Assembly (NCBI RefSeq): GCF_035994185.1 | Contig: NZ_CP108538.1 | Location: 6,549,501 to 6,613,500, forward strand | DNA length: 64,000 nucleotides | Origin: Streptomyces sp. NBC_01217 | GTDB taxonomy: Bacteria; Actinomycetota; Actinomycetes; Streptomycetales; Streptomycetaceae | Direction of reading: 5' to 3' | Shown: positions 38,781 to 43,483 of the stretch, one piece after another | Position numbering within the stretch: position 1 is the first letter of the stretch | Layout: each line of letters starts with the position of its first letter | Notes under the pieces: model-generated | What the model was told of the DNA's origin: nothing | The model's database searches: none | Seen by the model: only the letters and a program-made list of their open reading frames with translations | Translations under genes and position numbers: made by a program

Positions 38781-39821
38781 GTGGACATCGATGTGAAGCT
38801 CTTGAAGGGCTTGGCACAGGACAAGGAGATCCCCTTCGACGTGCTCGTCGAGGCGATCGAGTCGGCCCTCCTCATCGCCTACCACCGTACGGACGGCAGT
38901 CACCGCCGCGCGCGCGTCGAGCTCGACGAGCGCGGCCACGTGACGGTGTGGGCGAAGGAGGACCCGGCCGACCTCGAACCGGGCCAGGAGCCCAAGGAGT
39001 TCGACGACACCCCGTCCGGCTTCGGCCGGATCGCCGCGAGCACCGCCAAGCAGGTCATCCTGCAGAGGCTGCGCGATGCCGAGGACGACAGGACGTTCGG
39101 CGAGTACGCGGGCCACGAGGGCGATGTCGTCACCGGCGTCGTCCAGCAGGGCAAGGACCCGAAGAACGTCCTGGTCGACATCGGCAAGCTGGAAGCCATC
39201 CTGCCGGTGCAGGAGCAGGTCCCGGGCGAGGAGTACACCCACGGCCTGCGTCTGCGTACGTACGTCGTACGGGTCGCCAAGGGCGTGCGCGGTCCGTCCG
39301 TGACGCTGTCGCGGACCCACCCCAACCTGGTGAAGAAGCTCTTCGCGCTGGAGGTCCCGGAGATCGCGGACGGTTCCGTCGAGATCTGCGCGATCGCCCG
39401 CGAGGCCGGTCACCGCACCAAGATCGCGGTCCGTTCGACCCGCTCCGGGCTGAACGCCAAGGGTGCCTGCATCGGCCCGATGGGCGGCCGGGTGCGCAAT
39501 GTCATGGCCGAGCTGCACGGCGAGAAGATCGACATCGTGGACTGGTCGGACGACCCGGCCGAGATGGTCGCCAACGCCCTGTCGCCCGCACGGGTGAGCC
39601 AGGTCGAGGTGGTGGACCTCGGCGCACGGTCCGCCCGGGTCACCGTGCCGGACTACCAGCTGTCGCTCGCGATCGGCAAGGAGGGGCAGAATGCCCGCCT
39701 CGCCGCCCGTCTCACCGGCTGGCGCATCGACATCCGTCCGGACACCGAGACCGACGCCGAGCGCGACGTCGCCGACCGGGAGCGGGCCGAGCGGGCCCGC
39801 GAGCGTTCGGAGCGCGGCTGA
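38781..39821 (+). CDS. nusA: Transcription termination/antitermination protein NusA
   Basis: The GTG at 38781 follows GAGGAGGC. The 346-residue NusA has the RNA-polymerase-binding N-domain (about 1-110), an S1 domain ([25 protein letters not shown] in parts) and two KH domains ([19 protein letters not shown] and [19 protein letters not shown]). It lacks the acidic C-terminal repeats of E. coli NusA, as usual in actinobacteria, ending in a charged [14 protein letters not shown] tail. It couples transcription pausing and antitermination with translation in this operon. Confidence 0.96.
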
Positions 39822-39825
39822 CCTT

Positions 39826-39856
39826 CCTGCGGCCGCGGGAATACAGCGGCCGCAGG
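39826..39856. terminator. Hairpin between nusA and ylxR
   Basis: CCTGCGGCCGC (39826-39836) pairs perfectly with 39846-39856 around a 9-nt loop, 5 nt after the nusA stop. As it lies within a NusA-encoding operon it may act as a partial terminator or attenuator rather than an operon end. Confidence 0.65.
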
Positions 39857-39952
39857 GAATACATCCGGGCGGCATGCCGCTGAGATCGCGACAACATCCG
39901 TTCGATTTTTGCCCCAAAGGGGTGAGGTCGGTGCGGGGAGGTAGACTTAAAC

Positions 39953-40231
39953 GTGTCTGGCCGGACGCACGCCCGCGCTTGCCCTGAGCGAACCTGTGTG
40001 GGATGCCGGGAGCGGGCGGCCAAGAGCGAGCTGCTGCGCATCGTCGCGGACGAGGACGCATGCGTCCCTGATCCTCGCGGTACGCTGCCCGGCCGGGGTG
40101 CATATGTACACCCCGGCCCTGCCTGTCTGGACCTGGCGGTTCGCCGCCGGGCATTCCCCCGGGCCTTCAAGGCCAAGGGGCCGTTCGACCCCGCCGCTGT
40201 GCAGCGGTTCGTCGAGCGGGTGACACCGTAA
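39953..40231 (+). CDS. ylxR: YlxR family RNA-binding protein
   Basis: The GTG at 39953 lies behind GGGGAGG. The 92-residue product has the YlxR signature TCVGCRERAAKSELLRIV and GRGAYVHPGPACLDLAVRRRAFPRAFK. YlxR (RnpM) proteins bind RNase P RNA and are found between nusA and infB in many bacteria, as here. It is basic and probably cytoplasmic. Confidence 0.92.
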   Translation: MSGRTHARACPERTCVGCRERAAKSELLRIVADEDACVPDPRGTLPGRGAYVHPGPACLDLAVRRRAFPRAFKAKGPFDPAAVQRFVERVTP

Positions 40232-40295
40232 TAAATGAACGGCACGGGACCCCGTGCGGTCAGGTACCTCGCGAGTTGGAAGTAGGTCGAGATTG

Positions 40296-40340
40296 CGATG
40301 AGCACTCGATGAGTACGCGATGAGTACGCCCATGAAGTAG
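40296..40340 (+). repeat. 11-bp tandem repeats forming three coupled mini reading frames ahead of infB
   Basis: CGATGAGCACT, CGATGAGTACG and CGATGAGTACG follow each other from 40296, then CCCATGAAGTAG. They create ATG-AGC-ACT-CGA-TGA (40298-40312), ATG-AGT-ACG-CGA-TGA (40309-40323) and a six-codon frame MSTPMK (40320-40340). Each stop overlaps the next start as ATGA. The 11-nt period shifts the frame by one at each repeat, which is what creates the overlaps. The last frame ends 38 nt before infB. Whether they are translated is not known. Confidence 0.8.
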
Positions 40341-40344
40341 CGAC

Positions 40345-40365
40345 GGTCCGGCGGTAACCCGGACC
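40345..40365 (+). promoter_or_regulatory. Hairpin just upstream of the infB ribosome-binding site
   Basis: GGTCCGG (40345-40351) pairs with CCGGACC (40359-40365) around CGGTAAC. AAAAGGAG follows at once. Ribosomes on the mini reading frames or a bound factor could melt or mask this structure and change access to the infB start. Confidence 0.6.
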
Positions 40366-40378
40366 TAAAAGGAGCGAA

Positions 40379-43300
40379 GTGGCTAAGGTCCGGGTATACG
40401 AACTCGCCAAGGAGTTCGGCGTCGAGAGCAAGGTCGTCATGGCCAAGCTCCAAGAACTCGGTGAATTCGTCCGTTCGGCGTCCTCGACGATCGAGGCGCC
40501 GGTTGTACGCAAGTTGACTGACGCACTGCAGGGGCCCGGCGGCAACGCCGGCAAGTCCGCTGCCAAGCCTGGTGCGCCCCGCAAGGCGGCGCCCGTAAAG
40601 CCCGCAGCGCCCTCCCCGGCCGCTGCGGCACGTCCTGCTGCCCCGAAGCCCGGCGCCCCGGCCCCCAAGCCGGCCGCCGCCGCCCCGGTGAGCAGCACCC
40701 CCGCAGCGCCTTCCGCGCCGTCCGCAGGCCCGCGTCCGGGCCCGAAGCCCGCGCCCAAGCCCGCTCCGGTGACTCCGGTTCCCGCTGCCGAGTTCTCGGC
40801 TCCGGCTCCGGCCCAGCCGGCTGCCCCGCAGCAGCCGCAGGCCCCGCGTCCCGCGGGTGCCACCCCCGGTCCGCGTCCTGCCGGTGCCCGTCCGGCCCCG
40901 GCCGGCGGCCGTGGTGGCGAGCGCGACGGTGGCCGTGGTGGCGAGCGTGGCGGCGACCGCCCCGCACGTCCCGCAGGCCAGGGCGCCCCGCGCCCCGGCG
41001 GCCGTCCGGCCGGTCCCCGTCCGGGCAACAACCCCTTCACCTCCGGTGGCTCGACGGGCATGGCCCGTCCGCAGACACCCCGTCCCGGCGGCGCCCCGCG
41101 CCCCGGTGGCGGTCAGGAGCGTCCCGGCGCCCCGCGCCCGCAGGGCGGTCCCGGTGGCGCCCCGCGTCCGCAGGGACAGGGCGGTGCCCGTCCCACTCCG
41201 GGCGGCATGCCCCGTCCGCAGGCTCCGCGTCCGGGCGGTGCGCCCGGTGGTAACCGTCCGAACCCCGGCATGATGCCGCAGCGTCCCGCTGCGGCACCGC
41301 GTCCCGGTGGTGGCCCCGGCGGTGGCCGTGGTCCCGGTGGCGGCGCAGGCCGTCCCGGTGGCGGTGCAGGCCGTCCCGGTGGCGGCGGCTTCGCCGGTCG
41401 TCCGGCCGGTCCCGGTGGCGGTGGCGGCGGTTTCGCCGGTCGTCCCGGTGGCGGCGGTGGCGGTGGCGGCGCAGGCCGTCCCGGCGGTGGTGGCGGCGGC
41501 TTCGGCGGTCGTCCCGGCTTCGGTGGACGTCCCGGCGGCCCCGGTGGCCGTGGTGGCACACAGGGTGCGTTCGGCCGTCCCGGCGGTCCCGCGCGTCGTG
41601 GCCGCAAGTCGAAGCGGCAGAGGCGCCAGGAGTACGAGGCCATGCAGGCCCCGTCGGTCGGCGGCGTCATGCTGCCTCGCGGCAACGGACAGTCCGTCCG
41701 TCTGTCGCGCGGTGCCTCCCTCACCGACTTCGCGGAGAAGATCAACGCCAACCCGGCGTCGCTCGTCGCCGTGATGATGAACCTCGGCGAGATGGTCACG
41801 GCCACGCAGTCGGTCTCCGACGAGACGCTGAGGCTGCTCGCGGACGAGATGAACTACGTCCTGGAGATCGTCAGCCCGGAGGAGGAGGACCGCGAGCTGC
41901 TCGAGTCCTTCGACATCGAGTTCGGTGAGGACGAGGGCGGCGAAGAGGCTCTGGTCTCCCGTCCGCCGGTCGTGACCGTCATGGGTCACGTCGACCACGG
42001 TAAGACCCGACTGCTGGACGCGATCCGCAAGACGAACGTCGTTGCGGGCGAGGCCGGCGGCATCACGCAGCACATCGGTGCGTACCAGGTCTCCTCCGAG
42101 GTCAACGGCGAGGACCGCCGGATCACCTTCATCGACACCCCGGGTCACGAGGCGTTCACCGCCATGCGTGCCCGTGGTGCGAAGTCCACCGACATCGCGA
42201 TCCTCGTGGTGGCGGCGAACGACGGTGTGATGCCCCAGACGATCGAGGCGCTGAACCACGCCAAGGCGGCCGACGTGCCGATCGTGGTCGCGGTCAACAA
42301 GATCGACGTCGAGGGTGCCGACCCGACCAAGGTGCGCGGTCAGCTCACCGAGTTCGGTCTGGTGGCCGAGGAGTACGGCGGCGACACGATGTTCGTCGAC
42401 ATCTCCGCCAAGCAGGGCCTCAACATCGAGGCTCTTCTGGAGGCCGTCGTCCTCACCGCCGACGCCTCGCTCGACCTGCGGGCCAACCCGGAGCAGGACG
42501 CGCAGGGTATTGCGATCGAGTCCCACCTCGACCGCGGCCGCGGTGCCGTTGCGACCGTCCTGGTCCAGCGAGGCACCCTGCGGGTCGGCGACACGATGGT
42601 GGTCGGCGACGCGTACGGCCGAGTCCGCGCGATGCTCGACGACAAGGGCGAGAACGTCGAGGAAGCGGGTCCGTCGACCCCCGTCCTCGTCCTCGGTCTC
42701 ACCAATGTCCCGGGCGCCGGCGACAACTTCCTGGTGGTCGACGAGGACCGTACGGCCCGTCAGATCGCCGAGAAGCGTGCCGCTCGTGAGCGCAACGCCA
42801 ACTTCGCCCGCAAGGGTGTCCGGTTCTCCCTGGAGAACCTGGACGAGGCGCTCAAGGCCGGTCTGGTCCAGGAACTCAACCTCATCATCAAGGGCGACGC
42901 GTCCGGTTCGGTGGAGGCCCTCGAGTCCTCGCTGCTCCAGCTCGACGTCGGCGACGAGGTCGACATCCGGGTCCTGCACCGCGGTGTGGGTGCGGTCACC
43001 GAGTCGGACATCGACCTGGCGACCGGCTCCGACGCCATCGTGATCGGCTTCAATGTGCGCGCCGCAGGGCGTGCGCAGCAGATGGCCGAGCGCGAAGGCG
43101 TGGACGTCCGGTACTACTCGGTCATCTACCAGGCGATCGAAGAGATCGAAGCGGCCCTCAAGGGCATGCTCAAGCCGGAGTACGAAGAGGTCGAGCTCGG
43201 TACGGCGGAGATCCGCGAGATCTTCCGCTCGTCCAAGCTGGGCAACATCGCCGGTGTGCTGGTCCGGTCCGGCGAGGTCAAGCGCAACACCAAGGCGCGC

Positions 43301-43483
43301 CTGCTGCGCGATGGCAAGGTCATCGCGGAGAACCTCAACATCTCCGGTCTGCGCCGCTTCAAGGACGACGTCACCGAGATCCGCGAAGGCTTCGAGGGCG
43401 GTATCAACCTCGGAAACTTCAACGACATCAAGATCGACGACGTCATCGCGACGTACGAGATGCGCGAGAAGCCGCGAGGCTGA
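40379..43483 (+). CDS. infB: Translation initiation factor IF-2
   Basis: The GTG at 40379 follows AAGGAG. The 1,034-residue protein has the N-terminal IF2N domain ([20 protein letters not shown] in parts), a very long Pro/Ala/Gly/Arg-rich linker (about 55-400, with many [16 protein letters not shown] repeats), a second IF2N (about 435-490), then the GTPase domain with GHVDHGKT near residue 535, DTPGHEAF and NKID, and domains II-IV. It delivers initiator tRNA to the 30S subunit. Actinobacterial IF-2 is typically this long. Its leader carries the mini reading frames described above. Confidence 0.97.

Follow-up and report, generated by a model that had tools for sequence, protein, structure and literature searches.

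A ladder of coupled mini-frames and a putative three-strand RNA switch ahead of infB in Actinomycetia

How bacteria measure their own translation-start capacity is, to our knowledge, an open question, and we know of no bacterial precedent for serial coupled reinitiation as a sensor. infC, with its AUU start, and prfB, with its frameshift, resemble the infB leader described here in that a translation factor holds down its own production by way of the step that it catalyses, but they rely on a single start codon or frameshift site, whereas the infB leader would be a reinitiation chain feeding an RNA switch. Termination-reinitiation at AUGA has been reported with reporter constructs in an actinobacterium (PMC11260477, available excerpt), where the ppe2 uORF shares with our locus an AUGA stop-start overlap with reinitiation, but has one overlap, between the uORF and the gene itself, and lies under a B12 riboswitch; neither a ladder nor an initiation factor is named in that excerpt. 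Likewise, Korolev and others have proposed reinitiation from leader peptides near genes (PMC4833913, available excerpt). The rimP-leader is also a leader RNA, and belongs to the same rimP-nusA-infB operon, but according to the excerpt available (PMC2965389) it carries a transcription terminator motif ahead of rimP, whereas the leader described here lies directly 5' of infB and no terminator was found in it. Among the matches listed in our literature search, which covered mostly openly accessible journal papers, there was no account of this leader, and no word beginning with infB occurs in the main text of three further papers: the survey by Narunsky 2024 (PMC11109978), a reannotation of S. lividans (PMC8079986) and a survey of translation in M. 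tuberculosis (PMC9094748).

We analysed a 64,000-nt stretch of DNA, hereafter the window, in which the leader separates two open reading frames. We take the upstream frame to be ylxR from the gene order nusA-ylxR-infB, and the downstream frame is presumably infB, encoding IF2. The features of the locus, in window coordinates, are as follows.

39953..40231, + strand: the upstream gene, presumably ylxR, 92 aa with a GTG start, from the ORF listing
40278..40291, + strand: purine-rich stretch GGAAGTAGGTCGAG, 5' of mini-frame 1, its conservation judged by eye
40298..40312, + strand: mini-frame 1, MSTR-stop, ATG AGC ACT CGA TGA, a step conserved in the class
40309..40323, + strand: mini-frame 2, MSTR-stop, ATG AGT ACG CGA TGA, in ATGA overlap with stop 1
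40320..40340, + strand: mini-frame 3, MSTPMK-stop, ATG AGT ACG CCC ATG AAG TAG, in ATGA overlap with stop 2
40345..40351, + strand: arm A, GGTCCGG, 4 nt past the TAG of frame 3, from an inverted repeat
40357..40366, + strand: arm B, ACCCGGACCT, a predicted partner of A (through 40359-40365) or of C (through all 10 nt), from inverted repeats and covariation
40370..40374, + strand: infB Shine-Dalgarno (SD) sequence AGGAG, enclosed by the B:C helix, from the sequence
40379..43483, + strand: presumed infB (IF2, 1034 aa, GTG start), the gene that would be under control, from the ORF listing
40386..40395, + strand: arm C, AGGTCCGGGT, inside infB codons 3-6, from an inverted repeat, a synonymous recoding control and pair counts

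The original prediction, that mini-frames encoding MSTR, MSTR and MSTPMK are joined by ATGA overlaps (40298-40340) and followed by a 7-bp hairpin ahead of infB, is borne out on both counts, and an 11-nt tandem repeat was detected here by two programs. Inverted-repeat searching placed the hairpin at 40345-40351/40359-40365 and also revealed that arm B (40357-40366) is perfectly complementary over 10 nt to arm C (40386-40395). The resulting B:C helix surrounds both the AGGAG and the start codon of infB, is mutually exclusive with A:B, and is contained in the minimum-energy fold of 40345-40420. The proposal of a translation-sensing leader for infB is supported in part: the ladder is conserved throughout the class (see below) and has the look of such a regulator, but the proposal had missed the switch, in which the 3' arm of the hairpin pairs with infB codons 3-6. 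The stretch GGAAGTAGGTCGAG at 40278..40291 is perhaps a weak ribosome site for mini-frame 1. Rfam returned nine weak matches in 39800-40700, none at gathering score, and none in 20 loci of the class and order.

Elsewhere around ylxR, we observed TAGACT 5 nt 5' of its GTG (39942-39953), which may be the -10 box of a leaderless ylxR-infB transcript, two 18-nt tandem copies of GCGGCCGCAGGGAATACA between nusA and ylxR (39829-39863), and an inverted repeat immediately after the ylxR stop (40239-40260).

Loci of relatives were retrieved using the N-terminus of the window's infB product as query. A 190-nt leader matched in 148/150 Streptomycetaceae genomes, and in 80 named loci, the best 80 of 455 stretches found to encode a relative in a genome scan, the leader element showed few differences and the three steps were present in 80/80. 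Among the variants seen, one locus (L058) has three added bases within frame 1 with the frame kept, and in a Streptomyces locus (L144) the loss of one base has fused frames 2 and 3. In the same best 80 loci, infB codon 6 (40394-40396), whose third base lies outside B:C, is GTA in 74/80; GTA is a rare codon in such genomes. One record labelled Microtetraspora glauca NRRL B-3735 (L005) has a Streptomyces-type leader, and its label may be wrong.

Beyond the genus, 166 genomes of the class had a match, and we examined 119 class-level loci, comprising the window, 6 order genomes and 112 class genomes. A ladder, defined as at least three coupled mini-frames, was found in 116/119. The three exceptions were read by hand: in L216 the third frame begins 2 nt past the stop, in L232 the third frame has 15 codons, and L300 has two steps. 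Because better-matching genomes had been fetched first, 20 genomes that were initially left out were added as a test of fairness; 19 of these had a match, 18 were readable and are counted among the 119, and the ladder was present in 17/18, including six loci of family f14 (f-labels are computer-assigned family numbers) in which the IF2 N-terminus shares only 50-54% identity with that of the window. Across 248 records, a set which contains the window's own locus three times and some genomes twice, 245 had a chain of at least three steps. Loss of the starts, stops and overlaps in related species had been named as the result that would count against the leader, and their conservation in 116/119 class loci means that this part of the original prediction has survived. 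Outside the class, 20 loci were fetched from 152 genomes with a hit, and the ladder was absent in 19/19 that were readable, with at most two steps in any of them.

When both strands, ATG/GTG starts and frames of 3-10 codons are considered, no three-step chain other than the infB leader occurs in the 64-kb window, while twenty 20-kb stretches of the same genome contained 8 chain starts (two at one place) with the same settings and 1 with ATG starts alone. Further three-step chains in this genome include MTRK/MTRSR/VSHFR in L277 at 3280 (+) and the repeat-borne MTGIDYGIG/MTGIDYGIG/MTGTAPPG in L273 at 3895 (-) (peptides here and below are written without their stops). As a single chain can occur by chance, the proof rests on conservation, and we compared a first class set of 101 loci (the window and loci outside Streptomyces) with 10,100 dinucleotide shuffles per test. 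At least three steps were present in 99/101 loci versus 0.72% of shuffles (ATG/GTG/TTG, 3-12 codons), in 99/101 versus 0.36% (ATG/GTG, 3-10 codons) and in 84/101 versus 0.04% (ATG only). The shuffles, together with the class-wide conservation, rule out a chance origin of the ladder.

The last mini-stop lies 38 nt from the infB start in the window and 35-60 nt from it in 111/119 class loci, and in the 115 loci that were folded it is followed by a hairpin of -11.2 kcal/mol or stronger, with arm A starting 0-6 nt past the stop in 110/115. A ribosome with a stop codon in its A site covers ~9-11 nt beyond it, and given this footprint a terminating ribosome would mask arm A. The A:B arms covary, with 205 pairs versus 124.1 ± 7.8 when permuted (37 combinations), although this comparison leans towards the native count, since the arms were defined by folding each sequence. 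The B:C duplex has a mean energy of -18.2 kcal/mol, compared with -12.2 when B is shuffled, -12.7 when C is synonymously recoded and -16.0 when C is taken from other loci, and it forms 620 pairs versus 579.5 ± 5.2 with C permuted (73 distinct B, C combinations from 114 loci), a count in which the register of B is the best-pairing one within 3 nt and which therefore also favours the native arrangement. These permutations ignore relatedness, so that their spread understates the uncertainty.

In an alignment of 50 chosen loci, 95.8% of B:C cells are standard pairs, falling to 6-53% (at most 53.1%) when the strands are slid, the covariation score is 0.215 versus 0.163 with 0/500 shuffles as high, and 10 cells are changed on both sides versus 2.8 in shuffles; double changes occur in 2 pairs in these loci, which is not above the value for shuffles (1.7). 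At the third base of codon Arg5 the pair is C-G in 33, G-C in 6, U-G in 4, G-U in 1, U-A in 1 and other in 5, and the recurrent exchange of C-G and G-C in several numbered families is a firmer point for covariation than the permutations. The leader is, as far as its sequence allows this to be read, a pair of mutually exclusive helices of which one would close over the infB ribosome site, with the exception of the f36 and f11 loci.

Which state would open infB was assessed from the computed cost of clearing a ribosome footprint, that is of freeing positions -12 to +16 of infB, either with A:B held or with the first 10 nt past the stop masked. The median cost was 7.2 kcal/mol with A:B held and 17.1 kcal/mol in the masked state, which was costlier in 117/117 class loci; the window gave 5.7 and 19.6 kcal/mol, respectively, and masking was costlier by 2 kcal/mol or more in 139/139 Streptomyces records, repeats included. 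Since A:B has no chance to re-form under masking, masking alone raises the cost, and the control with shuffled leaders therefore matters: the median difference between masked and held states was 10.1 for native and 3.6 for shuffled leaders, and in 70/117 loci 0 of 10 shuffled leaders reached the native difference. An enclosing helix under A masking was found in 98/114 loci versus 71/114 with shuffled leaders, a modest excess. The unpaired probability of the SD did not separate the states and leaned the opposite way, averaging 0.56 when A:B was held and 0.61 under masking, with the SD more open under A:B in just 45/117 loci; it fails as a measure because the loop of B:C contains the SD, and it was rejected in favour of the clearing cost.

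The B:C pairing suggests the direction of control, namely that leader translation closes infB, and we consider it somewhat more likely than not, at 0.56, that the leader acts as a translational attenuator, reading initiation capacity and placing infB under negative feedback. A ribosome would start at frame 1, terminate, reinitiate at every stop-start overlap and reach the frame-3 stop, where it would cover A, leaving B free to form B:C and so blocking infB initiation. When initiation or reinitiation is weak because IF2, initiator fMet-tRNA or free 30S is in short supply, the staircase would seldom be finished, A:B would form first during transcription and infB would be translated. Serial initiations would give a steeper signal than a single one, the number of steps setting the steepness, and IF2 would limit its own synthesis; as IF2 delivers initiator tRNA, such feedback would act on initiation capacity. 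The anatomy of the leader (frames, A:B, B:C and covariation) is well supported, and from it we infer the translation of the mini-frames, their coupling, the sign and the signal. That IF2 or initiator tRNA would be what is sensed is suggested by the identity of the gene. The leader is class-wide and real, and in all likelihood regulatory.

Control of the opposite sign, in which ribosomes finishing the staircase move on, melt B:C and reinitiate at infB so that leader translation turns the gene on, seems unlikely to us. It would agree with the unmasked free fold, which has an SD-enclosing helix between leader and infB in 71/119 loci, with the reinitiation fed by leader peptides near genes that has been proposed elsewhere (PMC4833913, available excerpt), and with the f11 loci, in which the last stop is 20-21 nt from infB with no hairpin. 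However, the 35-60 nt between last stop and infB in most class loci, with the stable hairpin between, is poor for scanning, and a covarying A arm would be superfluous in a mere coupling device. Mean anti-SD pairing was -5.4, -2.4 and -1.9 kcal/mol at frames 1, 2 and 3, and -8.2 kcal/mol at infB, and with the strongest SD of the four starts infB should have no need of delivery. The scarcity of SD-like sequence at frames 2 and 3 is expected if these depend on coupling, as they would in the attenuator. At frame 1 the pairing is no better than in its own shuffles (-5.4 versus -5.3), which score alike because the stretch is purine-rich, and SD enrichment ahead of this frame was dropped as an argument.

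Some loci lack the full switch. B:C is missing in the f36 loci, poor in those of f4 and f37, and missing or poor in some f17, f26 and other single loci and in several f14 loci (f14 judged by eye). In L231-L234, L214 and L290, from f4 and f37, the 3' end of the hairpin, CCTC or CTC, faces the GAG(G) of the infB SD by eye, which may be a direct version of this closing, in place of the pairing with codons 3-6. In the two f11 loci (L295, L296), where the ladder is kept, a terminating ribosome would cover the infB SD directly. Since the ladder is kept where the hairpin or B:C is absent, it is more widespread than the three-strand switch.

Control at the level of transcription, by attenuation or through Rho, with leader translation setting polymerase read-through into infB, is improbable. 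Interplay between Rho and uORFs is common in actinobacteria, which speaks for such a scheme, but the position of arm C within infB points instead to control at the ribosome site, and across 39700-40500 no terminator-like site (a hairpin followed by a T run) was found on the + strand, the sole one being on the - strand at 40242-40257. An intrinsic-terminator attenuator was rejected for want of a hairpin and U run on the + strand.

The mini-frames themselves drift in a manner that separates letters from arrangement. In the 116 ladder loci frame 1 has 4 codons in 82, frame 2 has 5 codons in 101, which at a 4-nt overlap corresponds to a 14-nt step, and frame 3 has 6 codons in 70 and 5 codons in 31. 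The idea that an 11-bp repeat builds the coupling needs correction: this repeat is the arrangement of Streptomyces, and in the class the middle frame is mostly of 5 codons. As the ladder survives with 14-nt and other steps outside the Streptomyces form, a tandem-repeat artefact is ruled out. The peptides run from MSAR/MSTQR/MSTSS through MSA/MSTRR/MSTYR and MTAQ/MSTQP/MITTGR to MKLK/MSSFTS/MRSNN (L239) and METK/VNGSK/MRPVRE (L226), and L202 has four steps, MMSASQ/MKAFA/MSVSA/MKMLSAQ, when its first frame is taken from its ATG. Starts, overlaps and frame lengths are thus kept across the class loci while peptide sequence drifts, and no conserved stall-inducing peptide was found among them.

This pattern bears on the idea that the repeats form an AUGAG RNA box bound by a protein such as YlxR, NusA or IF2, with the short frames as a by-product. 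The three near-identical 11-nt repeats of Streptomyces would suit such a box, but the letters drift (ATGG, GTGA, ATGAC, AATGAAG) and the spacing goes from 11 to 14 nt and more while the frame relation holds. In the L213 group, ACG stands where the first ATG would be, and an in-frame GTG with its own SD-like stretch, GAAGGAG, has taken its place as the start. A start-stop relation that is kept while letters change fits translated frames better than a protein-binding box, which we regard as quite improbable.

The overlaps measure 4 nt in 218 and 1 nt in 14 of 232 cases, and the internal stops are TGA in 229/232, largely as a consequence of the NTGA construction. Least probable of all is that what the staircase senses is termination or recycling, through release factors, RRF or EF-G, with a long dwell at the last stop as the signal. 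In its favour, each step is also a termination, the internal stops are nearly all TGA, though for the constructional reason just given, and how far A is masked would depend on the time that a ribosome spends at the frame-3 stop. Against it, the last stop is mixed (TAA 52, TAG 47 and TGA 20 of 119), so that no single release factor is favoured there, and the gene encodes an initiation factor.

Taken to its full extent, the attenuator that reads initiation capacity would be a class-wide, GCN4-like serial-reinitiation meter that throws a three-strand switch over IF2 synthesis throughout Actinomycetia, a generalisation that we put forward tentatively, as somewhat short of an even chance. If it is true, the fraction of ribosomes that get as far as the last stop would fall as a power of initiation efficiency and the leader would be a homeostat for translation initiation. 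infB is essential, and the leader would offer a compact and testable device for measuring capacity in a class to which antibiotic producers and, going by sequence, mycobacteria belong; its design of serial overlaps could be looked for in other systems and built into synthetic circuits. In Mycobacterium abscessus, WhiB7, a regulator of the response to antibiotic stress, has a ChIP peak listed upstream of infB (PMC10727445, available excerpt), a hint that translation stress may act on the promoter region of infB as well.

Set beside known systems, the leader shows the overlapping stop and start of termination-reinitiation as two or more successive overlaps in 116/119 loci, and, as in erm-type attenuators, its stop lies within one ribosome footprint, of the length given above, of the arm to be masked (0-6 nt in 110/115). 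Yeast GCN4 resembles it in having serial short frames, reinitiation set by the factor that handles initiator tRNA, and a downstream gene that reports the outcome, but GCN4 works through eukaryotic scanning of separated frames with no RNA switch and its target is a transcription factor, whereas ahead of infB the frames overlap and the target gene encodes the very factor that handles initiator tRNA; the two are not homologous. The erm leader-peptide attenuators (compare PMC8274638) share with the infB leader a leader frame, competition among three strands and a helix over the ribosome site, but in erm a drug-stalled ribosome opens the gene, whereas at infB a ribosome that has come to the end of the leader would do the closing; nothing implies a drug or a peptide, and there are three coupled frames instead of one. 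Its geometry predicts closing, the opposite of erm induction, and we do not count it as a member of the erm type. We rate the infB leader as a variant of leader-frame translational attenuation, in which the new part would be the serial coupled reinitiation sensor.
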